Positions 4,101 through 36,300 of a stretch of DNA of 64,000 nucleotides are shown here, piece by piece. Source of the DNA: Branchiostoma floridae (taxonomy: Eukaryota; Chordata; Leptocardii; Amphioxiformes; Branchiostomatidae); assembly GCF_000003815.2 (NCBI RefSeq), contig NC_049986.1, forward strand, positions 17,289,542 to 17,353,541, written 5' to 3'. The translations under genes and the position numbers were made by a program. How positions within the stretch are numbered: the first letter of the stretch is position 1; each line of letters opens with the position of its first letter. The notes under the pieces were generated by a model, which saw nothing but the letters and a program-made list of their open reading frames with translations, was not told the origin of the DNA and made no database searches.

Positions 4101-5133
4101 AGTATTGCAAGAATCGTTCATCTAGAAACATTTTAAATCCCTCTGTGTCCTTTCGAATGAATGAAACCGCAGCTATTGTGGCCCATTGCGATTAGGCCAT
4201 GCTGATTTCATTGTATGGATGACATCCTCTGGGCCCCCAAACGGGTGCGAGCATGGGAATAAAATTTACCTTTATTATGAGATATAAGTGATCAGAAAGG
4301 TTGTGCAATTGACTGAATACACAGAGTATGTTATAACAAACACTGGATTTTCTTTCACATCTTCTTTGACTTTGGGACTCTACCACATTAGTGGCCGTTT
4401 TACGATATTTTTGCAATCGATCTGCGGTATATATTTGCTGATTTTTCAGCTGCTTTGTACGATTTACAGTATAGCGGCTACCTTTGGGAAGGTATACGAC
4501 AGAAAACCGATGCGCGCGCGGATGTCATCCATATAATCAAATCAACATGGCCTTACAAGGCTCCTTGGTTTAGAAACAAAATAACGGATCAAAATGCTCG
4601 TAATCTCAGTTAGACAATCAATTAGTCATTGCACTTACGTCGGCCCATCAGCTAACGAAGGACGTTCCTGGTTACAATCTTGTCTACAATCAGCAATGCC
4701 CAACTAAACGGGTAACGGCAAAATCAATACTTGTGAGCCAATTAACAACAACACGATGTTTGGTACCGGTGTCTTACTTAAAACGTCTCTGGCACTCATG
4801 TCCAATGATTGTAAGAAAATTATCCCATACTACAACTCCTGTATTAGTTAGATAAGCCTTAAGTAAAGCTATAGAACTGTAGTTATGTAGATTCCATACT
4901 TTGTACCTCGTACAATATTGTTGTGCAATAAAGTTATTGTCATTATGAAATACTAGTAGTTTTCTCGTTTCACAAGAAACTGGTCATCATCATCAAGTGC
5001 TTCTAAACTGTGAGCACGATTATGTAAATCTAATTGTCATTTATGTCTACAGATGGACGATACTACAAGATCGGTTACTACGACAACAAAAATAACAACT
5101 GGACACTGAATCACAGCATCGTACGATGGAATG
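1150..5133 (+). CDS. GABBR1: GABBR1 exons 1-5: C-terminal lobe of the Venus-flytrap ligand-binding domain
   Basis: Five exons (1150-1344, 1685-1878, 2088-2145, 3999-4062, 5053-5133) encode the second half of the extracellular bilobed domain: [13 protein letters not shown], a conserved NCTVDQM segment, GHFTTEM, the [14 protein letters not shown] helix, [20 protein letters not shown], then TLTQIEQMW and the [10 protein letters not shown] strand that closes the domain. Several N-glycosylation sequons are visible (NCT, NVS, NNS, NQT, NWT, NHS). The family's C-terminal link goes straight to TM1 without the cysteine-rich domain of glutamate receptors, and that is what is seen here. Confidence 0.9.
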
Positions 5134-14254: not shown

Positions 14255-14750
14255 TTACCTGCTCAAATACCTGGTCAATGGAATGGCTGCCACGATGCTG
14301 ATGACGTACAGGATCAGACACAGCCTGTCCAGAACCTTCGCCAGCAAGGTGTAGTCGGACACCACCTCCTCGTTCTTTACTGCCTTGGTCAGCTCCTTCA
14401 TCTCGTTCTTCAACTCGGTGAACCTTTCGCCCATCTTCTCCGTTCCGATCTTCACGGCCTTGATCAGATCCTCGTTTCCTTTCCTCACCGTCCTGGTCAG
14501 CTCATTCTCTCCCGAGGATCCAGTGGACCTACGCCCTGTAGGAGGCTGAAACGCCCGTCCAATTATCCTGGATCTTCCACCACCCCACATCCACATTTCA
14601 GGGGCGCTTCTTCCATCCTTAGCCACCATGCCATTGTCGTCAAAGGCGATGGTCAGCTCTACGGCAGCGTGGTTGGTCAGGGGATCGTCACCGCCCGCGG
14701 TACCGGCGCTGGCTTGCTTGTCCTCCATGAGATCTCCCAGAAGTAATATC
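14255..14750 (-). CDS. exon 16: cytoplasmic loop, MA-type helix, TM4 and stop
   Basis: 165 codons plus stop. A Ser/Gly-rich loop is followed by a long charged amphipathic helix ([20 protein letters not shown]), then TM4 ([20 protein letters not shown]) and a short extracellular LTRYLSR tail with TAA. This is the standard organisation of the M3-M4 loop in Cys-loop subunits. Confidence 0.9.
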
Positions 14751-17700
14751 CTATGCAAATGTAAAACATTTTTACAAATGACGTTCCTCATTGTGCAAGT
14801 GTCTGCAAAGCATATCACAGCACTTGTGCGCCTGTAATTGGCCTAAGATTTCTCCATATCAGAAAGTGACTATCGAGATATTCCACATTTTCAGTCGTTC
14901 CTACGAAAACAAGGAATGGATTCAGTGACTCACTACGCCTTTGAATGTTTACGCTATCTTCAGAAGTTGCCATCAAAGGACCAGTAAGTAAGGCTGCAAG
15001 CAAAGGTTCAACTTGACGACTAAGACTGAAAGAAATACATCATCAAGAAGCTTAAGCGTCTTAAATGAATGATTTCATCATATGATTGGATACGACAGAC
15101 GAATTCAGTACCTTGCTGTGTAGCGGAGGAAAATAACCCTCGCCGTGGGAGACAGGCTCCCCTCTTTGCCGTGAATGAAGATGACGGCCATGGTGAGAAA
15201 GAGGAACAGTCCCATCAGGCCCATGCACACGATGATCAGCGTGGCTGGAAAATTACAGATGATAAATCCAGTAATAGCTACCAGAAATTTGACGAAATCC
15301 AATTCAAACGGAATGCATTTAATAATTGCTTGCAAAATGGTATGGTTAAATCAAATGTTTGCACTCACCGAAAAATGGTAGAGCTCCCTTGACAGGAATA
15401 ACGTCTGTAACAAACACAAGAGAGACGACCATAGACAGTTGAATGGTCACTCCGAAGGAGATCCGGTCTCCTTCTCCTATGGGCATGATGAAGGTGATGG
15501 TCATCAGCACAATCAGGATGATGCAGGGTCCAACAGTCGTGGCGATGTGGAATGTGGGGATCCTTGACAGTTGAAGAGAGAAGCACGCCTCCTTCTGATG
15601 TTTTGCGGAGGTCATATCCCTGCGGTACCATTCTCCCTCCGCTTTTGAAGGGGAGTAAGATCCACAAGGATGACGCACTTGTACATCTAATGCGGAGCTT
15701 TCCTCGTAGCATTCTGTAGTTATATTATATGTAGATATATACATCATCATCATCATCCAGGCGTGCTGGTTATATACACATGTGGTACATAGTAAGATGT
15801 ATCTAACGTCTATAAACGCTATACCAAAACGTCAAAGAAGTTTAGACATCCAGGTAATAAGATACGCCAAATAGCAATTACTCAAGCAACTGGATGTGAT
15901 TTGGAAAATCAACATGGGGACATCAGATTTTTCTAGCCTGAGTACCATCCTATTTNNNNNNNNNNNNNNNNNNNNNNNNNNNNNNNNNNNNNNNNNNNNN
16001 NNNNNNNNNNNNNNNNNNNNNNNNNNNNNNNNNNNNNNNNNNNNNNNNNNNNNNNTTTTTAGGGTAGGTAGTGTAAGGAGCCCGTTAGAAATCAAATGGT
16101 ACCCAGGCTAAGATTTTTCCAGTTGCTTGATTAATTGATACTTGGCGTCATACCAGAACATATTGCTACCAGATTTAGAGTCCTATGGAATATCCGAAAC
16201 ACTTACGTATTGTTTGCTCGATTGCCGTGGATGCAGAAAAACAGACTTCGCATTCCATGGTATCTGCGGGGAAGAGGAAGGGGTCAGCATCACACACGGT
16301 GGTGGTCAGCGTTTCCACTCTCCACTGTACCAGACCGGTGCTGCTCACACGCACCGGTACGTCCTTTGGTAGGCCTTGGTGGAGGGGGTTAGCACTGGAA
16401 CGTAGATCACAAAGAGATTCCTGTAACTTTTTATATTCGTTTGTTTGTACTGCATACCCAGTAAAACTGCCACTGAACAGTACAAGATGCATATCTGGAC
16501 AGATTTGCTTCACTCCCACCGGAATGGAACCTTACGCCTTTCCATTACTGAGGTGGGTACTTATACGTGTTCCCGGACCTCCATTTATGTTCTATCCTCT
16601 AACCAAAGCTAGGTACTCATTTTCACATGAGAGAAGTGCCTTTCTAATGGCCTGTCGGGGGTTTTAACATTGTCTCGATTTGTTTCAATTTTGCAACGCG
16701 TCTTGCTTTGGACAAGGAATTTTCCACCAGTCATAGGGGTTGAAACCTTGGCCAAGTAAGGCATACGCCTTTATCTTATAATGAAATAGATTTAATGAAT
16801 GCTTTAATTTATATCAATCTGGTTGATTGAACAAAGCCTTTCCACCTACTTCCTCTTGAGAGTGAATGCTGGGATCCAAATATCCTTGCCAGGAACGCTG
16901 AATGTCTCGATATCACCGTAATACTTTGGGTTCCACTTCAGCCTAGCGTCGTACCATGTCTAATAGGATAAAGATAATTACGTCTCAACAAAACTTGTTC
17001 TCCATGATCCAAAGGGACATAACTAGACATATAGACTACATGTAAAGACTTGAATATTTAGAACATTTATTTAGCCCTGAATAGTATTTTAGGACGTAAA
17101 GTGTGATAGCTGGAAAAGTTGTAATAACGTTTTTTCCGAAATAAGGGGCAAAAGATTGTGAATCGTAATTGTGAACGTCAGTCAATAGAATCCGTTGATA
17201 CGTGGCATGTGCAAAAACTGCCTAACGGACAACTACCTGTTACCGTGGTGTTGGAGGCGTTGATGATTAGTTTTCATGGTGACAGAGAACCATGAGCTCG
17301 AGCTCCTATTGGGTTGAATTTCATAGTACTAAATACTACTAAGCGCATATTGCTATATTTCCAAAAATGGTCTCCTGGCTTAGAGATCGACAGCCAGTGA
17401 CTGAGAGAAATTGTGTACCATAGGCTACATAGGCTGTGCAAACTTACGAAATCGATGATCAAAGAAGCAAGAAGCTGCTCCTTCTTTTCATCCTGAAATT
17501 TGAAACAAACAAAAATCATAGCATTAATCTTGTTGTGCACTGATGCATTTCAGCATCCATAATGATTTTGCTTATCAATAATATTCTTGGAAACGAAAAG
17601 GATCCTCAGATATGTAAGAAATAGTACTTACCAAGTTGACGATTTGTTCCACTTCCCCCCAGAAGTTGATGGTGACATTTTCGTCAGGTGCCAGACTCGC

Positions 17701-20700
17701 ACTGTAGGTCCCTAGTAGCTCCTTTTGCAGCCGTCGCTTATAGTTTACTAAACAGAGGGTGACCAAGCTTGTCAGAAAATGATGTCAAAATGTGATTCCG
17801 TACTGGTATAGCCTGACACGTTTTGCTATGAATTACAATGTGCGTAAGGAGCTTTTCTTGGGCACAGCAGCAATCTGTGGACAATGTTTAACCTAATTAA
17901 TGTCGCCTACATGTATGACAAAGATAGGAAATACGTGTGCAGAATAGCATACAAAAATGATCTCTGTCTTATTTACAGACGACTGGAGGAAAAACAAAAC
18001 AATGTGAATGACCTTTCTACGTCAAGAACTATTCTCAATGATACTTGAGTAAATGTGGAAACCGTGAGAAACCAGAATTAGAAAGTTTAAGGCAAGGACT
18101 AAACACCTGAACAAGTGGGCATGTGATATTCCCAGACGCCGGCGGACGAGGAGTTCCCCTGGCGGCACCTGACTTCCCGAGGATAACCGTACTCCAGCAT
18201 GTAGCCGTCGTTACACGTGTACGTCACCTTTTCTTCCAACAGGTAGAACCTCTTGCTCGGAGTTCTCTTGCCGTAGATTGGAGGCCCTCTGTCTGCACAG
18301 CTAACGGAATCTAAATGTAGTACAATAGAAACATTTTTATTTATTTTTTTTTTTTTTTATTCAGACATAGAGGACATAGAAGACAGACATAGTGGTGACG
18401 CACTCAAGACCACAGGTATGAACATTATATCACTATACATATATACAAAGACATAGACATAACTGAACTAAGCGAAATACAAAATTAAGGAAGATATAAA
18501 TAATACTAACATCAAGTTACCGTCCTCGGTTAAACAAAATGGCCGCTCCAGACCGGTAGGGTTACGGCAGTAGTTCTTGTCCAGGTTAGCCCAGGGGTAC
18601 TCTGCCTTGTAGTTATCATCTGACCACTCAAGACTCTTTGCCCCGGAAGTAGTTGTACTCCATGCTCCACGGTAGTTTGTGCCAGTGCCATGATAGCAAA
18701 CTGAGTATAAAGAAGTGAGCTACCTGTGGGCGAAAGAACCTGCAACCATTGTATTGCAAAACCGGTGGAAGACGAAATACATTTTTTTTCTAACTGCCTC
18801 TCCAATGACCAGGAAAGAAAGGAGTTATTTGAAGAGGTTTGCAAAAAACTCAAGGTTTGCAAAACACACAAAAATTTCGAAACGCTTACCGACGAAAACA
18901 AAACTATAAAGCTGTTGACGTCACATAACCCACTCATCATAGAAAAAGTGGGGTATTTCGTCTTCCACTGCTTCCAGAAAAGAAGTCAAACCCCAAATGC
19001 ATAGATTGTAGCTCTCAGCAGTCAATATCATTGTTAGAATAGTCACTTGTTTACACTTGTCACCATTGTTATCTATACCAAATTACTTTATGTATGTTTA
19101 CTATATCTTCTGTATGCTTTATGTTGCAATTAGCCCTCGGGCAAGAACTTGCAAATAAACTTCTATGTAGTAAAAAGAAGGAAAGACGACGGGAAATTGT
19201 TAACGTTACCTGCCACTAAAGCCACACTACCACATGACAGTCGCCTGGCGAAAAAATATTATTGCAGTTCTGACTCCCACCTTCCGTATCTTTCACTGCT
19301 GGTTCAGGGTTCCAACAGGCGTGCTGTGGTGACGGGAACAGCTCACATGGAGGCAGCAGGTCCCTCATCAGGGCTTCACTCATGCTGAACACTTCCTCAC
19401 ACCAAGAACGGCATGGCAGCAGCTGTCTTCCACTAATTAGGGAAAGAACTAAGCTCAATACCATTCGATGCATATCGTGAGGATATATATATCCAAGGAA
19501 GATTTAACCTCATTGATATGTCACAATGCGATGTTTTACGCGTACTTAAGAGCGAAGAAAACGAATACGTAGAGAATGAATGCCCCAATGGTTGATGGGC
19601 AACATTCCTTGATGACAAATAATTGATTCACGACCAGACGCGGACGCGGCTAGGTACGATATCATTACCCCGGATTCTTATCTATTCCAAGAAGATCTAC
19701 TGCCTACTGAGGGCAAAACTGCATCCGAAGGGCTGAATACTATAGAACTGACACCGGAACCAATGCATCGGATGGTGTTTAGCACTTTGGACCATGTCTT
19801 TCCTGTGGTACACCTTCTTCAGGAGATTTTTCCAGTAGATGTATTGGCTACTTACACGCATGAGGCCGTGATGTTTGAAGACGGACAGTGGTGAAGGTTC
19901 TCTTTAGTCACATTGCATCCTGGAAAAATTACAGTAGATACGAATTCTCGTAACTCCGGATGGTGTTCCCCCGCGATGCTGTAGGAACTGTTGAGAAGCT
20001 CCACGGCAGAGGAGTTCCGTATCTCCTCGGCTGTCGTCTGCTTCATCGGGTTCGGTAACATGGTGAGTCTGCTGTTGAGCTGGAAATCCTCGGGAATTCT
20101 CGAGCACACTGAAAAGTGAATCAAAAGGATTCCATGTTATTCGTCGACACGTCGGCTGATGCAACCTGAAGAAACAAGGCATTGACATTTTACCTGAAGG
20201 TAAAAGGAAGTGGAAAACACTTAAAAGTTTTAGACAGCATTCGCTGTCTTATGACACTTCGCCAGTATCAGAATGCTCTCTAGTGCAACTGCTGCATGGT
20301 CAAACTCAATATCAAGTTGTCAATTCTATTCATTGCTCGAATTCAGAAAAATAAAAGACCACCCGATTCTGGAGTTGATTTCATCTTTAAAGCACTAAAT
20401 TATGCATGCAACCAGAAGTAATTATAGGCACCGATGTGACTGACCCCATGATACGGTAACTTACCACATCTTTCCTCGTCGCTGCGGTCCGGACAGTCTG
20501 AGGTCCCGTCACAGCGTCTCCATGACAATATGCAGGTGTATTTGTCTGCACAGCGGAAATACCCAGGGGAGCACTTCACGATACCTGTGAATGGCAACAA
20601 TTTCTCATTAATGCTGTTTATTCTGCCACACCCAGGGATGTCCCTGTAGCTCAACTGGTAGCAGCCTCATCAGTTCCCGGATGTACTAATGCCAACAGTC

Positions 20701-23700
20701 GAATGTCATTTTGAGATCGCAGATCAGACTTATCGTCCGATCGATTTTCGTGTAATGTGACGGGGATATTAGCCTAACTATCTAACCGTTTTCCTCAACC
20801 TTCTTGACTGTATACATACACATACATAATGTTATATTTCCTAATTATAATCTTTTAAAAAGATAAAGTGACTGTAGGGAAAAAGACCTACCCGAGATAT
20901 GTACTTCACACAAGGTCAGTGTTCGGGAGGGTCCGGGAAGACGGACGCCTACGTAGCGCCCCTTCATCCCCTCACACGGGACGGAAATGGACGGCTGGCT
21001 CACGTCGATTTGATGGTCACCTCCACACTTGGGATTCGTGTGAATGAGCTCGGAATCTCCGATGTGGATGTTGAAGGGGTTGATTCGCTCCTGACAACAG
21101 TCCCCGCGGTTAATGATGATCACTCTGTAGATATCAAAGGCAATGCAATGGCACTTGTCAATAACTGATATATAAGTATTTGGAACACCGTATTAACACC
21201 CTATTTATTTATTTATTTATTGGTTTGGCTGCACCGAACACACAGCCAGGGCTGCCCAACTAGCCTATGGCTATTACAAAGGGCTAGCCCTGCTGACAAA
21301 CACATAAACAATACAGATTAAAAAAGAAGAACATTTGTATGTACATGGCAGGGTCCTCCCCAAAGGATGGAATAAGGGAGGTCCTCCACTATACTCCTAG
21401 CCCAGCTCCACTATACTACTTTTGAAATTTAGTGTTTCTTCCCTATTTTCTTGGTTAGTTTTGCTAAAATCAATGAAAATTCACAGATTTTTGTGCCAAG
21501 TGGCATCACTTTTCCAGTGGGCATTGTGACTATTGTCTGCAAAAACTTGTGAATGGGCTATGATCAAAACAATAGTCATTTTGCCACTTCACAACAATGG
21601 AATCACAATGATATATTATACTTGTAGTATTTGACACCTTCTGTCTTTGCAAAATGAACCCATTTACATGAAAGAGCAGCGTGTTGGTGCGGGTTATTTT
21701 TGCCAGCCCCTCCACTATACTAAAAAATTCTGGGGAGAACCCTGCACATGGTGTAGGATAACTTACATATCATCTAAAATGGAGTATATAACATCATATC
21801 ATCGACAACAATATTTGCAATGAGAGGTCAGGGTCTGTATATACACGTGTATGACTAATTTACCATGCGTAAGGGTTGCCTAGACATTCCCACAGTTTTC
21901 TTTTGAAAGAAAACCCTATATATAAAACCGGTAACACCCTATATCATTGTTCGCTTAGTTGTATTAGTAAGTATATGTATATTTATATGGGGGTATGGGT
22001 GCGTGGGGGTGTGTATAGGTGTATGTGTGTTGGAGGAGTTTGTGCATTTGTGTGTGTGTGCGCGCGTGTGAGTGTGTGCTGTGTCCCCTTGCATGCTTTT
22101 GTTTGTGCGGATTTTATGCTTATGGTATTCACACCAGTTGGATAACACGTTAATAGTTAGTTAACTGGCCACACATGACCTATCGTTGCACACCCATAAC
22201 GTACACATACCTGCCAACCATGTACGATTGACCCAGATCCACCCACCAGCTGGGATCAGCTTCCTGTAACGTCTGTGTACAGGAACCGGTGGACCCATAG
22301 NNNNNNNNNNNNNNNNNNNNNNNNNNNNNNNNNNNNNNNNNNNNNNNNNNNNNNNNNNNNNNNNNNNNNNNNNNNNNNNNNNNNNNNNNNNNNNNNNNNN
22401 GTCAGATGAGCTGCTAGATGTTGAGCTGTTTCCCAAGGGCGACATTTACACCTGTACCAGGCGAGAGGACGGTTAAGGTGCACTCTCACTGCACCTGCGT
22501 CAAGCTTGCGTAACTGCGGGGTTCGTTCGCTGCGTCACTGTTTTGTTATTTTCTCGGATTTTTTATAATTTAGATATTGCGTAATACGTACGGGTATGAC
22601 TTAGAAGACGACGAAATACACAAAAAGTAAGAACATTTGTTCTTTATCTCTGAAATTCGTTAAGTATCTTTCGAATTCCACAGTAACGCATGTGCGACCC
22701 AAGTGCAGTGAGAGTGCACCTTAGTGGCATTGCAACATTTACTGGTCTCCACTAAGCCTTCCGAAGGGGGTGCGGGGATCGTAGAATTCGGCAAAAAAAC
22801 GGGTAGTCCACGCTATCAAAGGTAAATGTTTCCCCACCCCTCTTAGTCGAAGAGTCTACCGTCCCCTGGGTGACAGGTTCTTAAGTATTAAGTAGAAACA
22901 GAATCGAACCTTACCGCAGGATGGCGCGTCACACCAGTCCCACCTCGTGCCGGGGTCCGTGGTGTAGCACCAGACTCTGGGTTCGCCGTCCGGATTCCGG
23001 CAGGCTGAGGTCTGCTCCAATCCGGAGGACGGGTAATTCTCGGGTGTCCTGCTGTGATCGTGCGGTGTCTGACTGTCCCAGCGTTGGCACGTCTTGCCCG
23101 TTTCGGTCACAGAAAATGTTCCTCGGTAGGATACCCCATTTCCTACAATACAGTCTAAGGCGAGGCCTCCGGGTACAAAATGGACAGATACTTTATTTTA
23201 AGTGCCGCTGTTGGAAGGAAAATAAAACTGCCTCGAACTCTCGACGTGGCTGGGCGGCTGCTCTGCGACCTAATATTTGACATATCCCTCAACGGATTGT
23301 ATAGAAAAGAAACCAATCTTTTTACACTTTCTGTGTCTTCTCAGTCACACTTTTACGTTTTGCATGATACACTAGTGCCCAGTGTGAAAGCGAAGAATAC
23401 ACATATCCTATTTAGGTCGCAGTGAGAGCGCAGCGCGTTCGCCGTCTAGTGGAAAGGGGGCCTAGCATACGTAATTTACAATGCGAAGTACAATTTGACA
23501 GTTGTTAGGATGTTGCTAGGTGCCTGGTTGTTGTCACCAATGGCAGCGACAACACCCGACCTCACTGATGCGTTACCAAAAGAATGCGGTCGCGCGATGG
23601 TAACAATATGATTACTATAAAAAAATTGTGGAAATATTTTGAACGTTCTGTCAAGTTTATAGATATTTCGCTGGTTGTGTAAAACTTTTGCAAGCATCTA

Positions 23701-25881
23701 TGATGTGGAATGATGATATTCATACGTCATCAGACGTATATTATTTGCCATTATTTACAATTATTTGTAACATTTTGGCACCCTAAATTCCTTTCACGTT
23801 AGAGTAGTCCAGCCCAAGTCACAGCAGGGGTAGTTATTGTCATTATTTACAAGTGGTCTCAATTCTTTATAGACATTTTCTAAGATATTTCACACTTCTC
23901 AATTATGTAAGCCTTTAGAAATATTCAAGACGTATGGAATATTATATTTCTACTAGGTTGTAAGTTATGGTAGCATTGTAGCATCATGCACATTTTGCAA
24001 CATTTGTAATGGTTCAGTGGGCTGGGCTAGGCGATTTATGAGCCAAATGATTGAGAGCGACAGTATACATCCTCACTGATGCATGCAAAAGGACCCGGTC
24101 GCATGATATCATATGATTACTATAATAATTACGCCGTTGCATACGATGCATCAATTCAAAACAAAAACTCGCTTTCGCAGTGTAGTGCCACAGGTCATCA
24201 TATTTTCAAACGACTTGCATTTCTGCGCGAGGCACTTTAAAACAAGGTGACAGGTCATCGGCTTGTCGGCTTGTCGGAACCAAAGGTTGAGACGTAATGA
24301 CGGAGATCGCGTGTTTGACGAGACACGAGAGCCACACCTCGAGCACTCTTAAGCCCCCTTTGCGATCGCGATGCGCTTTCACTGCGACCTAAATAGGATA
24401 TGTGTATCCTTCGCTTTCACACTGGGTATATCATACAAAATGTAAAAGTGTGACTGAAAAGACAACAGAACACACAAAGTGTTAAAAGACACGTTTCTTG
24501 TCTATACAATTAGTTGAGCGATACGTCAAATTTCAGATCGCAGAGAGAGCGCGGCGAGAGCGCCGTCCCAGTGGAAAGGCGGTATGACGGAGATCCCGTG
24601 TGTGATGAGAAAGGAAAGCCACATCTCGAGCACGTAAAGGTGGGGTCACACCTGCGTATATATTTACGTCCGTATGAGGCGCGCATGGGAGTATTTGCCT
24701 CCACCAGTCTCCACAGGTCGTTGTAAAAATAATACAAATTGGACAAACTTAAACAGGTAACATGTCGGACGAGTTAGCTGGGTCGCTAACCATACTTCTC
24801 GGTCAGCTAACTCATCTGGCATGTTATGTATCTATATTTGTCCAATTTGTACTATTTTTTCCACGACCCCCGGAGCCTGGTAGAGACTAAGAGCTTCATA
24901 CGCACCTCAAACGGACTTGAATATTTACGCATGTGTGACCCCACCTTTAAACTTTAAGCCCCCCTTTCCACTAGACTGCGATCGCGATGCGCTCTCACCG
25001 CGACCTAAATAGGATATGTGTATCCTTCGCTTTCACACTGGGTATATCATACAAAAGTGACTGAAAAGACAACAGATCATACAAAGTGTCAAAAGACTCG
25101 TTTCTTTTCTATACAATTCGTTTAGCGATATGTCAAATTTCAGGTCGCAAAGAGAGCGCGACGAGAGCGCCGTCCTAGTGGAAAGGGGGTATAAAAAGAA
25201 CCCACCACCGCACTTATCGAAAAGAGTAGGGGTTCATCTCTGTGTTTGTTGTTTGTTTGTTTTTGGTTAATTTAAGCCTTATGCTTTCCGGCTATATATA
25301 TACTAACGTCACATTTCCAAACTAGGGCCAGGCCGGGCTGTTTGTGGAAACGATGTATACGTAAAAATATACAGAAATAATGTCTTTTTACGTCGTGTGT
25401 AGTTTGATATCTTTTATATCATACCTTTCGTTCCCGAAAGCTGCCCGGCCGGGCCTCGGTTTGAAAACGTGACGTAAGCCGTATTACGCAACTTCAACGA
25501 TTACGAGGAACAAACAAAAATAAACAGGACTGTCTAAAAAGGGGGTCTAGCTAAGCTTCGGCCTGAGTGTACACTCCTGGTTAGCTATAGGCCTACGTCA
25601 CATTTCCAAACTGGGGCCCGGTCGGAAAGCTTTTGGGAACGAAAAGTATGATATAAAGGACACAAGATGAAAAGAGACTATTCGTGGGCATTATTTGTGT
25701 ATATTTCATGTATACGTTTCTATTTCTCGTTTCCACAAACAGCCCGGCCGGGCCCCGGTTTGAAAACCTTAAACAAATAAAGTGAAGTGAAAAAACGAAA
25801 ATAGACTTTGCAGGTACATTTCCTACCTGAGACAAACAGCACACAGCACGCGGCCCCAGCGACGACAAGCTGGCCTCTCAT
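14255..25881 (-). CDS. chimeric multidomain Cys-loop channel subunit (kringle, F-lectin, LDLa, Frizzled CRD, kringle, sushi, ion channel)
   Basis: Sixteen exons in transcript order: 25827-25881, 22915-23154, 22211-22451, 20892-21124, 20465-20584, 19856-20108, 19281-19432, 18521-18700, 18107-18310, 17632-17747, 17448-17492, 16850-16959, 16207-16394, 15369-15713, 15112-15244, 14255-14750. The protein is about 1,036 residues: signal peptide (1-18), kringle, F-type lectin, LDLa, Frizzled CRD, degenerate kringle, sushi, then a pentameric ligand-gated channel subunit with Cys-loop and four TM helices. Every junction is GT-AG and phase-compatible; the module borders are all phase 1. The channel half looks cation-selective by its M2 sequence. 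I know of no characterised Cys-loop subunit with this ectodomain, so the ligand is unknown. One gap (22301-22400) and one frameshift fall inside the lectin exon. A competing model is two adjacent genes, but the sushi exon splices in phase to the channel and no internal signal peptide was seen. Confidence 0.85.
15112..15713 (-). CDS. exons 14-15: end of the binding domain, TM1, TM2 (pore) and TM3
   Basis: Exons 15369-15713 and 15112-15244. Contains GEWYRR, then TM1 with [22 protein letters not shown]2 in [20 protein letters not shown] and TM3 [20 protein letters not shown]. Aligning M2 on the family gives Asp at -1', Arg 0', Ser 2', Thr 6', Leu 9', Ser 10', Val 13' and Asp 20'. This is the nicotinic-type cation filter and gate, not the Pro-Ala filter of anion channels. 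Confidence 0.92.
15864..16146. mobile_element. MITE with CGCCAA..CAAGCAACTGG inverted ends, containing a gap
   Basis: Left CAATTACTCAAGCAACTGG and right CCAGTTGCTTGATTAATTG are inverted, beyond them CGCCAA and TTGGCG. A single related end (TTACTCAAGCAGCTGGATAT) is at about 53150-53170. A 100-N gap (15956-16055) lies inside. Confidence 0.65.
16207..17747 (-). CDS. exons 10-13: Cys-loop receptor ligand-binding domain
   Basis: Exons 17632-17747, 17448-17492, 16850-16959 and 16207-16394. Visible are the beta1 strand [15 protein letters not shown], then [54 protein letters not shown], and the Cys-loop [15 protein letters not shown] with exactly 13 residues between cysteines and the FPxD motif. 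The usual W-x-PD is WIPAF. The Trp of loop B and the vicinal cysteines of loop C seen in nicotinic alpha subunits are not found, so acetylcholine binding is not expected from this subunit alone. Confidence 0.9.
18107..18310 (-). CDS. exon 9: sushi (CCP) domain
   Basis: 68 codons, phase 1-1. Four cysteines in sushi spacing: [33 protein letters not shown] Trp (GVWEY) precedes the last cysteine as usual. It is the membrane-proximal module of the added ectodomain and runs directly into the channel's ligand-binding domain. Confidence 0.92.
18521..18700 (-). CDS. exon 8: degenerate, C-terminally short kringle
   Basis: 60 codons, phase 1-1. [20 protein letters not shown] and [14 protein letters not shown] identify a kringle, but the second cysteine is replaced (AKSLEW instead of xxCQxW) and the exon ends at LTED before cysteines 5 and 6. 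Only three of six cysteines remain. It joins in phase to the sushi exon. The acceptor lies about 14 bases from a LINE fragment inserted on the opposite strand. Confidence 0.85.
18711..19178 (+). mobile_element. 3' fragment of a non-LTR retrotransposon (LINE)
   Basis: The plus-strand reading frame through 19004 contains [28 protein letters not shown] and [11 protein letters not shown]. This CxxC...HxxxxC segment and its context are typical of the region after reverse transcriptase in CR1/L2-like LINEs. A 3' tail follows, ending near AAATAAAC at about 19152. It is inserted antisense in intron 7 of the chimeric channel gene. Confidence 0.65.
19281..20108 (-). CDS. exons 6-7: Frizzled-type cysteine-rich domain
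   Basis: Exons 19856-20108 and 19281-19432, phase 1-2-1. Family features are [40 protein letters not shown] and LLPPCELFP. Frizzled CRDs bind Wnt lipids or other ligands. Of the ten canonical cysteines, C1, C5, C6, C7, C9 and C10 are visible; C2, C3, C4 and C8 are absent. Two extra cysteines (HHC and ASC) lie between C5 and C6. NSS and NIT/NVT sequons are present. Confidence 0.85.
20465..20584 (-). CDS. exon 5: LDL-receptor class A domain
   Basis: 40 codons, phase 1-1. Six cysteines in order: [23 protein letters not shown] and DEERC. The acidic calcium cage [12 protein letters not shown] is intact, so the module should fold with one bound calcium ion. Confidence 0.93.
20634..20700 (+). mobile_element. 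possible tRNA-like SINE head fragment
   Basis: TAGCTCAACTGGTAGCAG is A-box-like, but no good B box follows. A related string, GGGATGTCCCTGGTAGCAGC, is at about 8596-8615. Confidence 0.3.
20892..22451 (-). CDS. exons 3-4: F-type lectin (fucolectin, F5/8C-like) domain, interrupted by a gap
   Basis: Exon 3 is 22211-22451 and exon 4 is 20892-21124. It opens with NVALGK, passes the 100-N gap, and continues [27 protein letters not shown], ending TLTLCEVHI. The fucose motif of the family is H-x26-R-x-D-x4-R/K. Here the spacing is exact (26 residues) and R-G-D-CCQE-R is intact, but the first His is Gln. Between the acceptor and the gap the frame breaks: the frame of NVALGK runs into TAG, while the shifted frame reads STSSSSSD, as expected for this family. 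An error at the contig edge is the simplest explanation. Confidence 0.85.
21348..21745. mobile_element. MITE with GCAGGGTYCTCCCC terminal inverted repeats
   Basis: Left end GCAGGGTCCTCCCC and right end GGGGAGAACCCTGC are inverted copies. The flanks show the direct repeat ACATG on both sides, a probable 5 bp target duplication. No coding capacity is evident. It lies in the intron inside the lectin module. Confidence 0.7.
22476..22721. mobile_element. 246 bp MITE with near-perfect TIRs and TA target duplication
   Basis: Left end AGGTGCACTCTCACTGCAC is matched inversely by GTGCAGTGAGAGTGCACCT at the right. TA flanks both ends, as for Tc1/mariner-type insertion. The left end is only about 25 bases from the acceptor of lectin exon 3. 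Confidence 0.8.
22915..23154 (-). CDS. exon 2: complete kringle domain
   Basis: 80 codons, phase 1-1. All six kringle cysteines are present: [39 protein letters not shown] and APSC. The GNGxxYRG, TCQRW and CRNPDG motifs leave no doubt about the family. Kringles bind protein ligands or lysine-like groups in receptors such as ROR and MuSK and in plasma proteases. The partner here is unknown. Confidence 0.93.
23225..25190. repeat. three copies of a MITE family ending CTAGTGGAAAGGGGG
   Basis: Copies at about 23225-23461, 24352-24583 and 24956-25190, the first inverted relative to the others. Shared blocks include ACCTAAATAGGATATGTGTA, CTTTCACACTGGGTATATCA and TCTAGTGGAAAGG. The last two copies flank a different foldback element (24636-24948), a nested arrangement in intron 1 of the chimeric channel. 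Confidence 0.75.
24636..24948. mobile_element. foldback element nested between two MITE copies
   Basis: Outer arms AAAGGTGGGGTCACACCTGC and an inverted GTGTGACCCCACCTTT at the right. An inner inverted pair lies around TACAAATTGGACAAA and TTTGTCCAATTTGTA. About 313 bases, no coding capacity. Confidence 0.7.
25304..25768. repeat. two oppositely oriented MITEs with ACGTCACATTT ends
   Basis: Copies at about 25304-25475 and 25594-25768. Both begin ACGTCACATTTCCAAACT and end near GGTTTGAAAAC. They share GCCCGGCCGGGC and a region of TATGATATAAA in opposite order, so the second copy is inverted. They lie just downstream of the signal-peptide exon. Confidence 0.7.
25827..25881 (-). CDS. exon 1: start codon and signal peptide of the chimeric channel
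   Basis: Encodes [18 protein letters not shown] followed by a phase 1 GTAGGA donor. The short positive N-terminus and hydrophobic core are typical of a signal peptide. The single leftover G joins with AC of exon 2 to give Asp-Cys, the usual start of a kringle. The distance to exon 2 (2.7 kb) is filled with nested MITEs. Confidence 0.75.
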
Positions 25882-27263: not shown

Positions 27264-30200
27264 TTAGAATTTCTGGTACTCGGACCTCTTTTTCCGGTAG
27301 AAGTAACAGGTGACGCCGAAAGCTATGATGACGAAGAGCGTGAGGCACACGGCCAGCGCGACGGTCCCTCCCGAGCTCCCGCCCGACGGGGTGTCGTCCT
27401 GCGGACACTGGTCAGTCTCCCCAAACTGTCCGTCACGACCGACGCCGAACGGCTGCGCTTCGAGCTCCGCAATCTTCATCCTGAAACACAAAACATTTAT
27501 ATTAGAGACCACCAGACAGATCAAGGAAATCAACCTGACTTTGACGCAGCAAAGTGAGTGGACATGAAACAAGGCTAGCTAACAGGAAGTGTCAGGATAA
27601 GCATGTGAGAAGTCTTTGAGAGACTCGAAATTATGACAATTCAGACAAACTAGCAGTGCAGCCAACAAGACATCAGTTAAAAGCTAAAGTGTACGAAAGA
27701 ATTGTAACTAATTATGATAGTAATAAAAGATCATAAGAGAAGGAAGGAAGGAAGGTCGGGAGATTTCACTGTTGTACCTTTTCCTCATCCTCATATCAAT
27801 TGAGGAAAACATTTGGAAACTCTAAGAGAAAGATTGAAATAAACAAATGTCAATTTTCTTATTAGTTGTTGTTTTTAACAGGTTAGCATGTACAATGAGT
27901 AAACGTACGTCACGTTGGTGTCCACCGGGATGACGGTGGGAGTGGCACACGTCAGGGCCCTGCCCACCTTCCCGTGGTAGGCGTCCACGGTGAGGTTAGA
28001 GGCGCGACCAGCCGTCCCACAGTCCCGGCACTCCGGAAACCCGTCCTCGTTCACCGTGTACTCCACCTGGATGTTGTTCAGCTTGAAGCTGGTACTGTCC
28101 GTCCCGATGTTTTTGGAGAATTTGATAGTTACCGTGTACCTGGAAGAAACAGTAACGCGTCAGTAATTGCTTTAAGTAATAATCTTGTATTTCGCTCCCA
28201 AGGTCAGCCCTTAACAATAGCCAATGGATAGTTGGGTTTGCTTGGCTGTACTGCCAAACAAATGAATAAACAGTGCATGCAGGTGATCCTTGCAAATTTG
28301 GCTCCATCATGAGAAAGACTTACTGTGAAACCACAAGACGTACCATTTGACAAATATATATGATTGATAATTGATAATTGATAATGATGGAATAGTTATA
28401 GACTGATAATTTCATAGGCGTTTGCCGAAAAGTTGATATCAACGCAATGTTAGAACTAGAAAGGCCGACATTTGCTTGAGAGCAAATACAGCATATTTCA
28501 GCCATACCCCTTCCCACGCAACATTGGACTGTTCCAAATCACCCCTGCGCAAAAATGGAACATCCTCTTAACAGTACATTATCCCCCAAAGTGGACTGGT
28601 ATTGTGAATTGATTCCAGGTAAAGACAGAGCTTGCTTCTATTTTTCAGAAAATGACAATAATCACACCTTCCATTCAGAAAATTTTCATCATGACTGAAA
28701 ATTGTTGAATGACTTCATGTAATGTCATTAACAATTTTCAGTACGGTAACTAGGCGTAAGTTTAAAAAAGTATAAGCTCCTTGTGATGTGGGTACATTTA
28801 TTATTGCAGTGAACTTTTTTATTCAAGTAGGGCATACGATTTAATAATTATCAAGCAGGTGCAGGTACTGTAGGAGCGTTTGTTTTCTTCAAGCTGTAAA
28901 ACTGTTAAACTGTTTTACTTTGTATGCAATCAACCATCGAGCCTATTCTTATTTTAGTTTAACAACTTCCTGCCAGACCCGGAAGATACGATTGAACCTT
29001 GTTCGAGGATTTATTTTCGTCTGTCTGGTCGGTCTGTTCATACCCTGGCGCTGAGAGTGTTTTATTGGGCTGAAACTCTGGCAGTTTAAAGTTACTTACA
29101 ATTTAAATGTTCAAAGTTTATGTCAAACAACAACAGCACTAGGAAATGTGGCCACTATAGACAGGTGGTCACTATAGAGAAAATGCAGATCTATTGACTA
29201 GGAGCCATACGTTACACATGATTTCAGTACACTGATCATTTAAATCATATAAACATTGCACAGGTAAGCCAATTGTTTAGATGTACAATTAAGTTCAAAT
29301 AATTCTGAAGAGAAATATTGATGAGAAAATAATCATTCTTGCCACTGTCTAACTTATAATTACGTATCAAAACTAAACGCAGATTTTCTAACTAACGCAC
29401 CTTTCGCCGACTTCATCAAAGGACCGCCGGCTATCAATCAAACACGGCTGTTGATTAGACTTAGAGTTTCAAACAGTCATGTGCTGTGTGCATGTTTTAC
29501 ATTGCTTGGACCTTCTTTCCTACAGCGGTGCTTCTACAAAATATTTAGACTGTAACACTGAGTCCCACATGTTTTATAGAATAGAATTTGACGCAGAACA
29601 GCGTTTTTTGCTGGGTATTTTTCTTGAAACATGTCCGTGGGAATATCAGCGAGGCGGCGACGTAGGGATATCAGACCGTCAACAAAAGTCGCACGGCGGC
29701 TAACGGCGCAGCGAAGATACTAGCGCTATAAATAAGCGCTTCAACTAAGGATGGCAACCCGTACAATATTTTTGTATACTGTTGAGCTAAGTAAAGTTTG
29801 TTGTTTATGAGGTTTTAGTTGTCTTTGAAGCTTTGACCCGAAATATTTTAAAGTCAAACTGCTGAAGAGAAGTAAGTTACTGCTACGATTATCGTAGATA
29901 TGGCCCTAAAAAACTGATAAAAGAAGCCTTCTCAATAGTCTAAAATGCAAGAGCTTCCGGGGGGGCTTCGCCCACCTGGGTCCCCCCCCACAGTGGCCCT
30001 GCCCCTGGACCCCGCCAGGGACATTCGGCGGCCCCCGGACCCCTGTCCGACGCTTTGACAAAATCCTGGCGAGAAGTCTGTACGGCCTGAGTCTTCAAGT
30101 TAACGTATTGTGTGGTCCCGCTTATAAATATTAATTAGCCTTCGCTTTCCTCTTCGCTGATTGGCTGAACCATTAATTGAATTAACTCTTCCTGCAGGCT

Positions 30201-33200
30201 AGACGCAGGTGCAGATGTCGGCTCTGTGGGGTGAACGTCCGAAAAGTCATGGCATGCCGCATGGAGAACGAAAGAAAACCAATTTCCCCTAAAAAAAGTG
30301 CTGTAATTAAGCCTTTTACAGTACTTTATGCCAAAAATTTTACTTGGATCATTTTACCAACTATATTATGCCTATCTATACCAAATGTTACTCATATATA
30401 ACATTTAACTATATATAACATATAAGTTATAAGTACTGTTGAACTCAGTAACGTTCAAGTTTGTTTTTAGTTGCCTTTGACGGTTTGACCTGAAATAGTG
30501 TTACGCTAAACTCCTGAAGAGAAGTTAAGTGACTGCTGCGATTATCATAGATATGCCCCTAAGAACTAATACAATATAAAGCCTTCTGAATAGTCTAAAA
30601 TGCGAGAGCCTTAGGCGGGCTTCGCTCCCCCTGGCGGGAACACTGCTATATACGGGATCATGAGGCCCCGCTTATGAATATTAATTAGCCTTTGGCCTCC
30701 TCTTCGCTGATTGGCTAGGTCTTTGATTCAATTAACTCTCAGGCTGACGCGCACAGGTGTGGCTCTGTGCGGGGTCACAGAAGGTCACGTCAGGAGGCCA
30801 AAAGAAAACAAATTTCCCCTCAGAAAAGTGCCAAAATTAATCATTTCAAAGTTGTTTATGTCAATAACTTGAATCTTGTTACCAAGTATCTAATGCCTAT
30901 CTATACCAAATTTCAGGTCATTTAATTGTAATACCAGGGTACAGGAGCCAAAAGTGTCCTTTTTTGGTCAAAAATTGGCCAAAAATCGCAAAAATAAGCA
31001 TTTTGTTGCACTGTACACCAAAAGTGTTATTGAATTTATATGAAGGGATTATCAAGGCACATCTGTGTCAAATTTCAGCTCATTCGGTTGCAATACCAAG
31101 GTACAGGAGCCAAAATTGTCCTTTTTTGGTCAAAAATTGGTCAAAAAATCGCAAAAATAAGCATTTTGTTGTACTGTACACCAAAAGTGTTATTGAATTT
31201 ATATGGGGGCATTATCAAGGCACATCCCTGTCAAATTTCAGCTCATTTGGTTGTAATACCAGGGTACAGGGGCCAAAATATACAGTTTTGGTCTAAAATT
31301 GACCAAAAAATCTCAATAAAATCATTTTAGAGGCAGATATGAAAAAAACTGAGAAAAAACCATCAAGGTATTGGCCCATTCTACCCCTGTGCCAAATTTC
31401 AGGTCATTCGGTCCAGGAACGGCGGAGATGAATCACTTTGAAGATTTGACAGGAGAAAGAAAGAAGAACTAGAGTTCCACGAACACATACCTTTGCCAAA
31501 TAAACCAGGTTTGTTATGTAGAATGATGTCTGCAGACAAATGCGTTACTCATTTCATTTTCTTTATAATTATATGCTTGGAGTTGGTTTATAAAATTTCG
31601 GCATTCATTATGCAAATTAGATCCCAAGTTACAATTAATTGATATCAAATTGTATCAAGCATTTCTTAAGCTATCAGCATACCAAAAATTATGATGATCC
31701 TTTGATCCATTCTCTTTCAAAGTCTTTAAATACACCTCTTACTCTCTTCCCTCTTTCTCAGTTACATATGTGACAACTTTGATGAAAGTACTATAATGGA
31801 ATGCAGTGGATTTATTAACTTTTCCTAATCAATTATGCAAATTACCTGTTTTTTTGCATAATAAGTATCACATTATATAAGTCTTCACTTGGGCTATCTA
31901 CATGCCAAAAAACATGACGATCCGTCAACACGTTCATATTTTCTCATTAATTATGCAAATGAGATCATCATTTGCATGATAAATATGTATTAACATTTCT
32001 CTCTTTCTCAGCTACATATGTGACAAGTTTTAAAGTCCTATCATGGAATGTAGTGAATTCATAAAATATCCTCATTAATTATGCAAATTAGCTGTTGATT
32101 TGCATAATTGGTATCTCATTATGTAGGTCTTCACTTACGCTACCTACATACCAAAAAACATGATGATCCGTCAACATGTTCATATTTTCTCATTAATTAT
32201 GCAAATGAGGTCATCATTTGCATAATTGATATCTATCGACATTTCTCTCCTTCCCAGCTACATATGTGACAAGTTTGAAAGTCCTATCATGGAATGCAGT
32301 GGATTTATGAATTTTCCTCATTAATTATGCAAATTAGCTGTTGATTTGCATAATTAGTATACCATTATGTAAGTCATCACTCATTCTATCTACATACCAA
32401 AAATCATGACGATCCGTCAACACGTTGTAGAGTTATTCTCGTCCAAAGTTTGAAAGGAAACCGGCGCCTGCAGTTCCAAAAAAGCCGCTAGGGGGCCCAA
32501 ACTCACAGCACTTACTCTCTGCCTCGAGGACTATCTACCACTCAAAAATCATGACCACAGCACGTCCAGAACACGAGATATAAAAAATTGAGTTTCCGCT
32601 GCAGTACCTTAGCAAGCCGCTAGGGGGCCCATTATCGAAGTTGACCTTCGTTTTCCCGACCCCTACCCACCTACCAAATATCATCGGGATCCATCCAAGG
32701 CTTCTCGAGTTATGCTGTTAACACACAGACACACAGACTCACAAGCCCAAAACATAACCTTAGCCATTCTGGCAAAGGTAAACATTACGAATACAATATA
32801 TTTCACCATACTATGTATGGCTGAAATATAATGATGCATGTCCATTTCACTTTACGAAAGTTTCGCTAGGTGGCGCTGACACCACACGAGGGTGCAAAGG
32901 TGGCTGTCAAACTACAAGTACCTGGTGATGAATCGATGAAGGTTAAACATCCAGGTAAGATTGGCGAAAGATGGCGGATGCTTTCTGAAACGTCTTACCT
33001 CTTCCAAAATCATGTACAGTTGCATTTGATCGTACAGTACTTGTTGTTGATATATGGGGATATTATCATAACATATTGAAAACAAAATTACTGTAATAGG
33101 ATTTCTTTCAACATCGGAACAAGAGGAAGCATTAGCACATGAACCTATACATTGGCTTACTGATCAATTGATAGTTGATTGATATATTAACTTACAAGTT

Positions 33201-33362
33201 GTCCCATGAGAGGACGAGGCTTGCGCTGTTCCCGGTAACCCCTGCGCATGTCCCCGAGGCGCCGATGTGGGGCGGCACGGTCAGGTCCGTCTGTTCTAAC
33301 GTGCCCCGTGTCGTGTAGTACTTCACTTTGAACTGGATACTGGCTTTTACTCTCATACACAC
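27264..33362 (-). CDS. LAMP luminal repeat 3, transmembrane helix and tail
   Basis: Exons 33196-33362, 27909-28139 and 27264-27480. Repeat 3 is more diverged: VCMRVKASIQFKVKYY, HIGASGTCAGV, YTVTIKF, SFKLNNIQVEYTVNED, an extra ECRDC pair, ALTCATP, NVTMKIAELEAQPFGVG, TDQC, then the TM helix. The 5 kb intron between the first two exons (28140-33195) is almost entirely repeats. Confidence 0.85.
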
Positions 33363-36300
33363 CTGGGAAAACAGGCAGTGTGCATCAGTAATGAACAAAG
33401 TGACCTAGGATGGGGGACACTAAGAACAGAATAACAGCTAGTATATATCTTGCAGAAAGCTAGACAAGGCCTCCTAGCCCAGCCGGTCAATACGTTTTGT
33501 TAATGAATGATCTTTATTTGCATGTTCCTGCCCATGTGGGCTAAATGCAGCAAATCCCATGATGGGATACTAATAAATGTTAATAAATACGTAGTACCCG
33601 CGCCAATCGTGCAACAGTCAACCGTACTCGTACAAACATATCACCTTTAACAAAGGTTGCAACATACACTCGTATACGTATTTTCCGCGAACAAGTCAAC
33701 ATTAACATTGGAATCTATCAAGTTGGCGTATAGGTGATCTTGTAACATATCTATGGCTATGGAAACATTTCGAAAGGCAAGAAGCTGAATACATAACAAT
33801 ACTATTAAAAATACAGATGGAATATATTTCAATAGCTTGTGCATCTTTCTCTACCCTACTCACCATGCCACTGCTGTTCGTGACCTTCCAGTCGCCGGGT
33901 ATCGGCAGGGGCATGTAGGCGGTAGTTGAGGGGCCGGGAGGCCGGGGAGTTGTGGTCAGATCCTCGGAGCAGACTCTGGGCGCGCCGAACTTGTTGTCCT
34001 TCACCTCGAACGGCTGCAGCTGAACCCCGACGAAGTTCAACGTCGCGACGGTTCCGTCCTGTAAGGTCTGCTCACTCTGACACATGTAAGACTGTCCTAC
34101 CGGCGCGCTGAACTGGTCCTTAAGGTCGTTCATCGTGATGGTCTTCTGGGAGTCGGTCTCGTTGGCGTCTGGGAAGTCGTCTTGGGTCAGGTTGTAGTTA
34201 AAGACGAGGCCGCTGAGACTGAAGACGTTCCTGACCTTGGTGAAGACCAGGGCGAGTGTGTAGGGAGCCTGGTCATCAGCGCCTACAGGCCACCTCATAC
34301 TGGGCAACAGCAATATAACGTATATGATATAAGTTAAATGTACACAGTGTCTTAATTGCTGCTGTTCTAAACATATTTTAAAAAGCTTGACTTCTGTCGA
34401 TCATATATTTATCCGTTGTATTATACTTTATCACTAGATTTTTGTTCCACTTATTATTAGAAAACCTTATTTCTGTCAACAACACTGTTTGTTAATAAAC
34501 AATTTGTCCGACAAAATTGTGTACGTGCCTAGCCACTTGCGACCATTCCAAATTGTTAATTTGATGGACAGTCACACTCACGCGGCACAATCTCAATTTT
34601 GAGGGCCTGTGTGGGGGCCTGTAGTTCTTGCCCCGATATTCTATGATAGAAATCCATTGAGCACGTTAAGAAATTTACTCACAGAAGCGACGCCTCTCCC
34701 TGTCCGTTGTCACATTCGCCGCCCACGTCAGCGGACGGGGACAGCTGGAAGTCCGCTAAGTCCTCGTCCCCATCTCTGGAGTCGTACTGGATCTTGAACT
34801 GCAGACCGAGAGAAGCCAGGATGCACATGTTTCCCGAGTCGTCAGTCACGTTGAAGTGACCTGTCAAATGTATGTACACATGAGCAAAGGAAGGAAGGAA
34901 GGAAGGAGGGAAGGAAGGAGGGAAGGGAGACAGGAACGAAAACAGGAAGAACGGAGGGAGTAAGGGAGAAAGAAAAAGAAATAAGGAGGCGGAAGAGGGA
35001 AGAAATTAACGTTTGAAGTGAGGAAAGAAGGCATGATGGAAGAAATGAAGATATGAAGGAAGGAAGGATGGGTGGAAAGAAGGAAGAAATGAATGTATTC
35101 AGATGGGAATGAAGGAAAAAGGAAGGGATAGAAAGTGGGGGATGGAAAGGACTGAATACAAGTCCGAAATCCTGCTAAATACGCAGATGATGTTTCGTAT
35201 GTAGACCCTCCCAGATGAACAAATGAATGAAAAAAATTACTATAGCGAAATTGAATATCAAGCATACAAGTATATCTTTTGCGTTCATTCAGAAGTACCT
35301 TACCGACTGTGGGCGGTGGAAGCGGCGGGGCAGGCCGGGTGGTGGGGGGAGGTGTGGTGCCCGCGATGTCCTCCGGGCAGACTTTCGGCTCCCCGAACTC
35401 ATCTCCCTTCACTTCGAACGGCTGGAGCTGAACCCCCACAAAGTTGATGGTGGCGACGTTTCCCACCTGTATGGTCTGCTCGGTGCGGCACTGGTAGGAC
35501 TGACCTAGCGTATATACATATGGCAAGAAATTGGACATATTTGAACGCAACGCACTTCTAAACCCAACAGAAAACGTAACATAGAATGATATTGCACCCA
35601 AGGGAATTGGCCGATTTTTGAAACATTATTAGCTCTAATAGCAGGTGGTGTGTGTCTCATTAAGAAGTGATCATCAATGGACCAGAGTCATTAAGGGTTA
35701 GTGCTGTTGTTTTAAACATAACATAACACTGAATTCCCAAGGAAGACATGAAATGAACCCCTGGTGCAGGTCTTTTGGGGAGCGAACTGTAGATTGTTAG
35801 ATAACTGCAGATAGAACTATCTAAATTGATATCCTGTAGTTTTGTAAGGTTTTCTCAGACTGTTAGGGTTGGAAATGCCAATTATTCTGCAGTGTCCAAT
35901 ATCTTGCCACTACTGACAAATATCTCAGTGAAGCTGGAGGGCTGCATGAGCAACCTCCATGGAGGACCTCTGTGGAGCTCCTCCATGGAGGTTGCTCGTG
36001 CAGCCCCTTCTCTACTGACCTAGCGGCGCGCTAAACGTGTCCTGGATGTCGTGCTTCTCAATGGTCTTTATCGCGTTGGTCTCGTTAGCGTTGGGGAAGT
36101 CGTCCTCGGTCAGGTTGTAGTTGAGCACGATGTCGTTAAGGTGGAATTCCGAGGCTTGGGAGTCCTTCTTGAAGGACAGGGTGAACTGGTAGTTGGGTCC
36201 TTCATCGCTCAGCGGCCATTGGAGGCTGGGAAAGAGAGTAGTTCATCTGATATAAGTGCAACGACATCAACCGCACAAACGATTAAGATAACAGTGTAAT

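Follow-up and report, generated by a model that had tools for sequence, protein, structure and literature searches.

Does the lancelet Branchiostoma floridae encode a pentameric ion-channel subunit that carries a chain of recognition modules ahead of its ligand-binding domain, or have two neighbouring genes been read as one? The question is raised by a locus in a 64,000-nucleotide stretch of the genome (hereafter the window; C8:17289542-17353541 in the contig naming of the searched genome). In the portion of PMC549065 available to us, the known animal members of the Cys-loop family show a stereotyped build, namely a ligand-binding domain (LBD) and four transmembrane segments (TM), the LBD alone lying outside the membrane. 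For lancelets, the accessible text of PMC4284660 reports that 1-1 exons have been shuffled to an extreme degree, and that of PMC4967905 attributes many fusions to prediction errors. A survey of pentameric channels (pLGICs) discarded terminal regions, with extra domains seen only at the genome level, as far as the consulted part of PMC4795631 states. If a large family with shuffled recognition modules on a channel does exist, it would unite fast ion channels with innate or contact recognition.

Gene structure at the locus

The window DNA and its translation contain, on the minus strand from 25881 to 14255, a chain of 16 exons with GT-AG introns and phases that are compatible throughout (Table 1). 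The initial annotation had proposed such a series, and both of its limits (25881 and 14255) as well as the borders at 18310, 18106, 17748 and 17448 were recovered. The signal peptide, six extracellular modules and full channel subunit that it had recognized were also confirmed, the Frizzled-like (Fz) and sushi labels resting partly on paralogs. Kringle 1, the LDLa module, kringle 2 and the sushi module are each bounded by phases 1-1, the channel following the last of these, and the F-lectin and the Frizzled-like module are each split into a 1-2 and a 2-1 exon.

Alternative starts were scanned as well. Before kringle 1, exon 1 alone offered a good phase-1 donor after a hydrophobic start. Further downstream the donors were weaker or absent, except for a reading upstream of exon 7 (19473/19464), which was judged to be an intron pyrimidine tract.

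Table 1. Features of the module-channel gene, with positions in the window.
Feature	Position	Strand	Evidence or remark
Exon 1: start codon and signal peptide (18 protein letters), phase-1 donor	25827..25881	-	Homologous exons in L041, L042, L044, L049
Exon 2: kringle 1, phase 1-1	22915..23154	-	Pfam PF00051, residues 20-98
Exon 3: F-type lectin, first half; contains 100-N gap and in-frame stop	22211..22451	-	C256 exon open
Exon 4: F-type lectin, second half, RGDCCQER motif	20892..21124	-	Pfam PF22633
Exon 5: LDL-receptor class A (LDLa) module, phase 1-1	20465..20584	-	Pfam PF00057
Exon 6: Frizzled-like module, first half	19856..20108	-	Below Pfam cut-off; paralogs above; family profile
Exon 7: Frizzled-like module, second half	19281..19432	-	Exon chain, cysteine alignment
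Exon 8: kringle 2, truncated in window allele	18521..18700	-	Pfam; full form in C256, L042, L043
Segment unmatched in C256, replacing the exon 8 3' end and donor; A-rich run at end	18343..18520	-	
Exon 9: sushi/CCP module, phase-1 donor	18107..18310	-	16.5 bits, below cut-off
Exon 10: start of Cys-loop ligand-binding domain, phase-1 acceptor	17632..17747	-	Pfam LBD profile from position 2
Exon 11: ligand-binding domain, 45 nt	17448..17492	-	Exon chain
Exon 12: ligand-binding domain, 110 nt, loop A region	16850..16959	-	
Exon 13: ligand-binding domain with 13-residue Cys-loop	16207..16394	-	
Exon 14: end of ligand-binding domain, TM1, TM2, link to TM3	15369..15713	-	
Exon 15: TM3, start of cytoplasmic loop	15112..15244	-	Pfam PF02932
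Exon 16: cytoplasmic loop, TM4, stop codon	14255..14750	-	

The window also holds other open frames. Upstream on the same strand, the neighbouring coding sequence at 27264-35625 (-) was placed outside the channel gene because it has its own stop; the frame ending at 27264 encodes a TM-like helix with a short basic tail, and similar lumenal-looking segments occur at 33702-35625. By eye, a 510-aa open frame at 40040-41572 (+) resembles the reverse transcriptase of a LINE-type element, two similar open frames at 43458-44841 (+) resemble ubiquitin-like domains, and an open frame at 58486-58920 (-) resembles a discoidin-domain receptor exon.

Module identities

A Pfam search of the conceptual protein, put forward in the initial annotation as a check, bore out most of the expected domains. 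Kringle (two stretches, 130.6 bits), F5_F8_type_C_2 for the F-lectin and Ldl_recept_a were all above cut-off, followed by Neur_chan_LBD (102.6 bits, cut-off 26) and Neur_chan_memb (58.1 bits, cut-off 28.1). Sushi and Fz did not come out at this level in the window protein. For Sushi the score was 16.5 bits against a cut-off of 20.7, which the sushi exons of the paralogs L045 and L047 passed with 37.4 and 22.2 bits. Pfam scans of the window protein and of a second copy on contig C256 gave no match to a kinase or Ig domain.

In the window protein Fz had no Pfam match at E<0.1, and a PDB search with the Frizzled-like region as a single sequence returned nothing credible. The C256 copy scored 16.6 bits against a cut-off of 32.1. 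The Fz exons of two paralogs, L047 and L048, passed Pfam with 51.9 and 62.9 bits, and a nine-sequence family profile matched the CRDs of sizzled and Frizzled-2/7 in the PDB (E 1e-5 to 3e-3), a result that leans on L047 and L048, the canonical sequences among the nine. Since these two paralogs pass Pfam and the profile finds Frizzled CRDs, the Frizzled-like label stands for the family. The module of the window gene keeps six of the ten cysteines of L047/L048 and has two new ones; cysteines 2, 3, 4 and 8, which we take to be two whole disulfide pairs, are absent. Ten cysteines and a Pfam Fz match, the marks of a Frizzled CRD, are both present in L047 and L048 and both lacking in the window gene. 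Sensing of Wnt-like ligands, one of the functions first suggested for this gene, is therefore little supported, because four of the ten Fz cysteines are missing.

The F-lectin keeps RGDCCQER. The fucose-binding motif of F-type lectins is given as H-X24-R-X-D-X4-(R/K) in the available part of PMC5712786. Both the window and C256 copies have no His at X24 and a Gln at X26. The F-lectin of the paralog L044 has His at X26, so that its spacer is 26 residues as against 24 in the motif of PMC5712786. Since Gln replaces the fucose His, the product of the window gene may be unable to bind fucose.

A family of paralogs in the genome

Paralogs were counted in the Branchiostoma floridae assembly alone (513 Mb, 431 contigs). 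Four queries were used, namely the channel part, the sushi plus first channel exons, the Frizzled-like module and kringle 2, and the matches were clustered by strand and distance. The tally took in all 96 rows for the channel (96/96), 120 of 150 for sushi plus channel, a weak tail and one unrelated LBD row being dropped, all 107 for the Frizzled-like module (107/107), and the first 66 of 150 for kringle 2. The cluster counts are lower bounds because only the best candidates were scored in each search, and some loci may be unmerged haplotypes.

The exons of kringle 1 and the F-lectin were rejected as family markers; they proved too widespread, with 973 first-look candidates, of which 150 were scored, and the tally is for this reason based on the channel together with Fz, kringle 2 and sushi. 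Exons resembling these two (about 46-81% identity) extend far beyond the channel family, the modules being spread through the genome.

At least 74 clusters were obtained. In 52 of the 74, which are spread over 17 contigs and each cover 3.3-14.6 kb, Fz, kringle, sushi and channel lie in this order on one strand; the 52 comprise the window locus, C256 and 50 other loci. Seven of the remaining clusters hold part of the set, and 15 hold a single type (eight lone kringles, three lone Frizzled-like modules and four sets of channel exons alone). Clusters that also contain sushi and channel TM exons account for 97 of the 107 Fz exon matches. Likewise, 56 of the 59 sushi matches used share a cluster with channel TM exons, and 56 of the 60 TM matches cluster with sushi. 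As a control, the first 61 of the 156 Neur_chan_LBD matches listed were compared with the module clusters, and one of the 61 lay within 15 kb of any of them. Given 97/107 for Fz and 56/60 for TM against 1/61 for LBD, the Fz-kringle-sushi modules go with one channel family and not with Cys-loop genes generally. The window gene is thus one of about fifty paralogs sharing a unit of Frizzled-like module, kringle, sushi, LBD and four TM, usually fronted by LDLa. The initial annotation had described one fusion gene; the fusion stands, and the gene is one of about fifty.

At C8:9517020-9531542 (+), two tandem Fz-kringle-sushi sets precede one set of channel exons. Either the ectodomain is doubled here, or a second gene is present whose channel exons escaped the search. 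A distant subfamily of 11 clusters lies at C2:27904906-27972878, C230:229505-396710 and C11:19752616-19799347, and may also include C10:11256698, C13:9340679 and C18:13188053. Where it was read (L047, L048), the Frizzled domain of this subfamily has ten cysteines and the head is CUB.

The junction between sushi module and channel

It is worth considering whether two neighbouring genes have been wrongly joined, one for a secreted protein whose module chain stops after the sushi module and one for the channel. The donor of the sushi exon, GTGTTT, is weak and is followed by an in-frame stop within three codons, and lancelet gene models are known to join neighbours wrongly, according to the available text of PMC4967905. 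Such a joining would, however, have to recur, as the order of modules and channel is kept at 50 other loci. It would also have to fit into very little space. The distance between the sushi match and the first channel match is 80-2257 bp in 22 loci (the window and C256 included), and the shortest gaps, 80 bp at C17:6527998 and 97 bp in C14, are therefore too short to accommodate the end of one gene plus the promoter and signal-peptide exon of the next. The phases at the junction are conserved: a phase-1 donor before GT was found in the sushi exon of all seven paralog loci read, and a phase-1 acceptor after AG in exon 10 of all four. No start resembling a signal peptide turned up when the window was scanned between sushi and channel, and the interval between the sushi exon and exon 10 holds a single weak poly(A)-like hexamer. 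We therefore regard two separate genes as highly improbable.

At 18106-18099 the window reads TCA GGT GTT TAG from the sushi exon past its donor into the in-frame stop, and the same letters are found in L042. Retention of this intron would yield a soluble module chain.

The position of the modules agrees with a single gene. Since the Pfam LBD match begins at profile position 2, directly after the sushi module, the modules appear to lie between the signal peptide and the mature channel, which is where insertion through shuffling of phase-1 exons would have put them. Homologs of the signal-peptide exon with a phase-1 donor were found upstream of four of the 16 paralogs read (L041, L042, L044 and L049). 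They are followed directly by LDLa in L041, by a kringle in L042, by kringle-F-lectin in L044 and by WSC-chitin-lectin in L049, and no second copy of the exon nearer the channel was seen in these four stretches. Genomic DNA, paralog order and phases together point to a fusion gene. The fusion first proposed is thus strongly supported, and a sushi exon that terminates a gene of its own is very unlikely on the genome sequence.

The second copy on C256

C256 is a contig of 39,874 bp. Over the 13.5 kb read it has the same order as the window locus, at mostly 95-98% identity (range 90-99.9%); a few stretches in introns or between genes have no counterpart. It is most simply read as the other haplotype; a recent duplicate is also possible. 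All of exons 2-16 are present in C256, open and with splice sites. In the window, an in-frame stop interrupts exon 3 immediately 5' of the 100-N gap at 22301-22400, and the C256 exon 3 (172 nt, 4411-4582) is intact. The window kringle 2 is without its final 11 residues, GSKEECDVIPC; the kringles of C256, L042 and L043 are complete and end in CDVIPC. As read from the sequence, window exon 8 could still splice in phase through a GTAACT donor to give a truncated kringle. One cysteine that this kringle has in C256 is replaced by Ser in the window copy. Because of the stop beside the gap and the truncated kringle, the window copy may be damaged or misassembled.

The same stop and truncation, together with the replaced cysteine, would also be expected if the window gene were a decaying family member, in which the fusion is ancestral and the working channel has been lost. 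We consider this improbable, since C256 is open over exons 2-16 with its splice sites and the base differences in exon 3 lie at the gap edge, as poor assembly would give. Exons 7, 9, 10 and 11 are, moreover, identical between the two copies. The dN/dS between the copies, with exons 1 and 3 left out, is 0.127 for module and channel exons together. It is 0.195 for the seven module exons (15.5 synonymous and 10.5 nonsynonymous differences) and 0.058 for the seven channel exons (16 and 3). These values point to purifying selection; exon 8 taken alone, with no synonymous and two nonsynonymous changes, does not.

The channel part

The Cys-loop of the window protein is intact, with 13 residues between its two cysteines and the FPxD motif. 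In what we take to be the usual naming of M2 positions, -1' is Asp in 30 of 30 rows, 9' is Leu in 30 of 30 and 20' is an acid in 28 of 30, the rows being 28 loci plus C256, with one locus twice. These residues predict a cation-type pore. The 60 best PDB matches listed for the channel were all nAChR and 5-HT3 subunits.

The positions of the acetylcholine box, presumably Tyr93, Trp149, Tyr190, Tyr198 and Trp55 in nAChR numbering, were mapped by hand with the aid of the PDB matches, the last three being read by eye. At Tyr93 all 20 rows have K, Q, R or E (Lys in the window gene), and none of 26 rows has Trp at the Trp149 position (Ser in the window gene), some rows in both counts being one locus twice. 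No vicinal cysteine pair was seen in the channel sequences. The aromatic box and vicinal Cys that identify an nAChR alpha subunit are not found here. Across 24 loci the mean identity is 89% in TM1-3 and 58-67% in the ligand-binding pieces; these means leave out L010, L011, L013, L038, L047 and L048 (alleles, duplicates and distant rows), which are kept in the residue counts.

Variable heads

The modules ahead of the common unit were read upstream of 16 paralogs (L041-L056). Twelve of them have LDLa ahead of the Frizzled-like module. The whole window order, with its kringle and F-lectin head, is repeated in one, L044. Beyond the signal peptide there is no head in L041, and L042 has a kringle. 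A chitin-binding-like module and a C-type lectin form the head of L043, to which L049 adds a WSC-like module; L050 has a WSC-like module, L056 a WSC-like module and a C-type lectin, and L045 a CCP and a C-type lectin. L046, L051 and L052 carry SRCR repeats, a YWTD-like segment, an EGF-like module and a C-type lectin, and L053, L054 and L055 have shorter versions of this SRCR type within the stretch read. The head of L047 and L048 is CUB. By eye, listed F-lectin matches also lie upstream of the family loci C16:2032647, C16:6822707, C16:2413828 and C221:495135. Because the signal-peptide exon was unseen in 12 of the 16 paralogs, the outermost modules there could in principle belong to a neighbour.

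Pfam was run on one to three representatives of each type. CCP, C-type lectin, SRCR, CUB and EGF-like (FXa_inhibition) heads were above cut-off; WSC (24.9 vs 27.8 bits) and chitin-binding (19.4 vs 27.8) were below it. The YWTD-like segment had no Pfam match on the representatives, and its name was therefore given by eye. Ten C-type lectin heads were found, and in the eight tested (L049 and L056 left out) EPN was present in six and WND in six, motifs that we assume to carry their usual meaning in C-type lectins.

In a tree of 27 channel segments, from which L011 and L013 were left out, the genes nearest to that of the window have a kringle, kringle-F-lectin, chitin-lectin or WSC-like head, or lack one. 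The six-row group around the window gene had a support of 96/94, its inner forks ranged from 88/78 to 100/98, and the CUB pair (L047, L048) stood apart at the midpoint root. The tree and the head readings together show that close channel relatives bear unlike heads.

Possible function

We observed the exon chain, its recurrence, the diversity of the heads, a pore of the cation type and the absence of the acetylcholine box, and the protein to which these features belong is most likely a recognition-headed, non-cholinergic cation channel. We think it fairly probable that the locus encodes one nicotinic-type cation-channel subunit with an extracellular module chain and swapped heads, in which recognition at a surface would lead to cation influx. 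Shuffling of phase 1-1 exons would account for the gain and exchange of heads.

The N-terminus of the nAChR LBD is located at the outer tip of the pentamer. Five module chains would for this reason project from the channel, and five heads per pentamer might give high-avidity binding to glycans or to other ligands at surfaces. Judging from the domain types and motifs, multivalent surface ligands are the most likely targets of the heads. The binding would then most likely either open the pore itself or anchor the channel where a second, non-acetylcholine ligand gates it, and surface recognition would in both cases be converted to cation influx. The suggestion in the initial annotation that the channel senses glycan or matrix ligands fits, because the heads of the paralogs include C-type lectins with EPN/WND; the sensing and the gating are what we infer.

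More specifically, the family may comprise about fifty recognition-gated channels, each with an interchangeable head on a constant LDLa-Frizzled-kringle-sushi-channel core, the cation pore being opened by microbial, dietary or matrix binding. This proposal is tentative, and slightly more may speak against it than for it. It is also conceivable that the modules serve only for adhesion or clustering, the chain anchoring the channel at glycan-rich matrix or contacts while a small molecule gates the diverged pocket, much like the chemotactile receptors of cephalopods. The constraint on the channel part (dN/dS 0.058), the replacement of the box residues in all rows seen and an Fz-kringle pair reminiscent of ROR and MuSK would agree with such a role. 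Anchoring alone, however, leaves the strong differences in heads among closely related channels unexplained, and we consider it rather unlikely. A channel in which surface recognition leads to cation influx is the reading that we prefer.

Comparison with known systems

The protein resembles nAChR subunits in its LBD and four TM, its 13-residue Cys-loop and its cation-type M2, and differs from them in the long module chain before the LBD, the absence of vicinal Cys and the replaced box. ROR and MuSK have a Frizzled CRD and then a kringle, and the lancelet protein shows the same order. Unlike them, it is a channel and not a kinase, the Pfam scans matched no Ig domain in it, LDLa and sushi flank the pair, and its Fz module is degenerate.

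In the literature searched, no description of a family of module-headed channels was found. The statement in the initial annotation that no protein with this module order has been described was nearly right, except that PMC4967905, in the text available, names one Neur_chan_memb architecture in passing. This is the lancelet protein 269420_PRF0, whose architecture with Neur_chan_memb is apparently unique to Branchiostoma and which is possibly a member of the present family; it is given by identifier only in that text, whose authors caution that such models may be artefacts. The chemotactile receptors of octopus and squid are, in the accessible part of PMC10338036, divergent nAChR-like channels that are not gated by acetylcholine. 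They and Alpo4 are comparable with the lancelet channels in being divergent and nAChR-like; no module chain is mentioned for them in the accessible text, and Alpo4 retains key aromatic residues.

Another parallel in build is found in prokaryotic pLGICs. The available portion of PMC549065 describes fusions of sensor domains such as PBP-I and Cache/MCP-N to these channels, and prokaryotic pLGICs, DeCLIC among them in the sources as far as consulted, share with the lancelet protein an extra sensing domain before the LBD. The domains are unrelated, however, and the lancelet family has several modules, phase 1-1 exons and a Cys-loop. If the module-headed channels are what they appear to be, they would be an animal counterpart to the bacterial fusions of sensor domains to channels.
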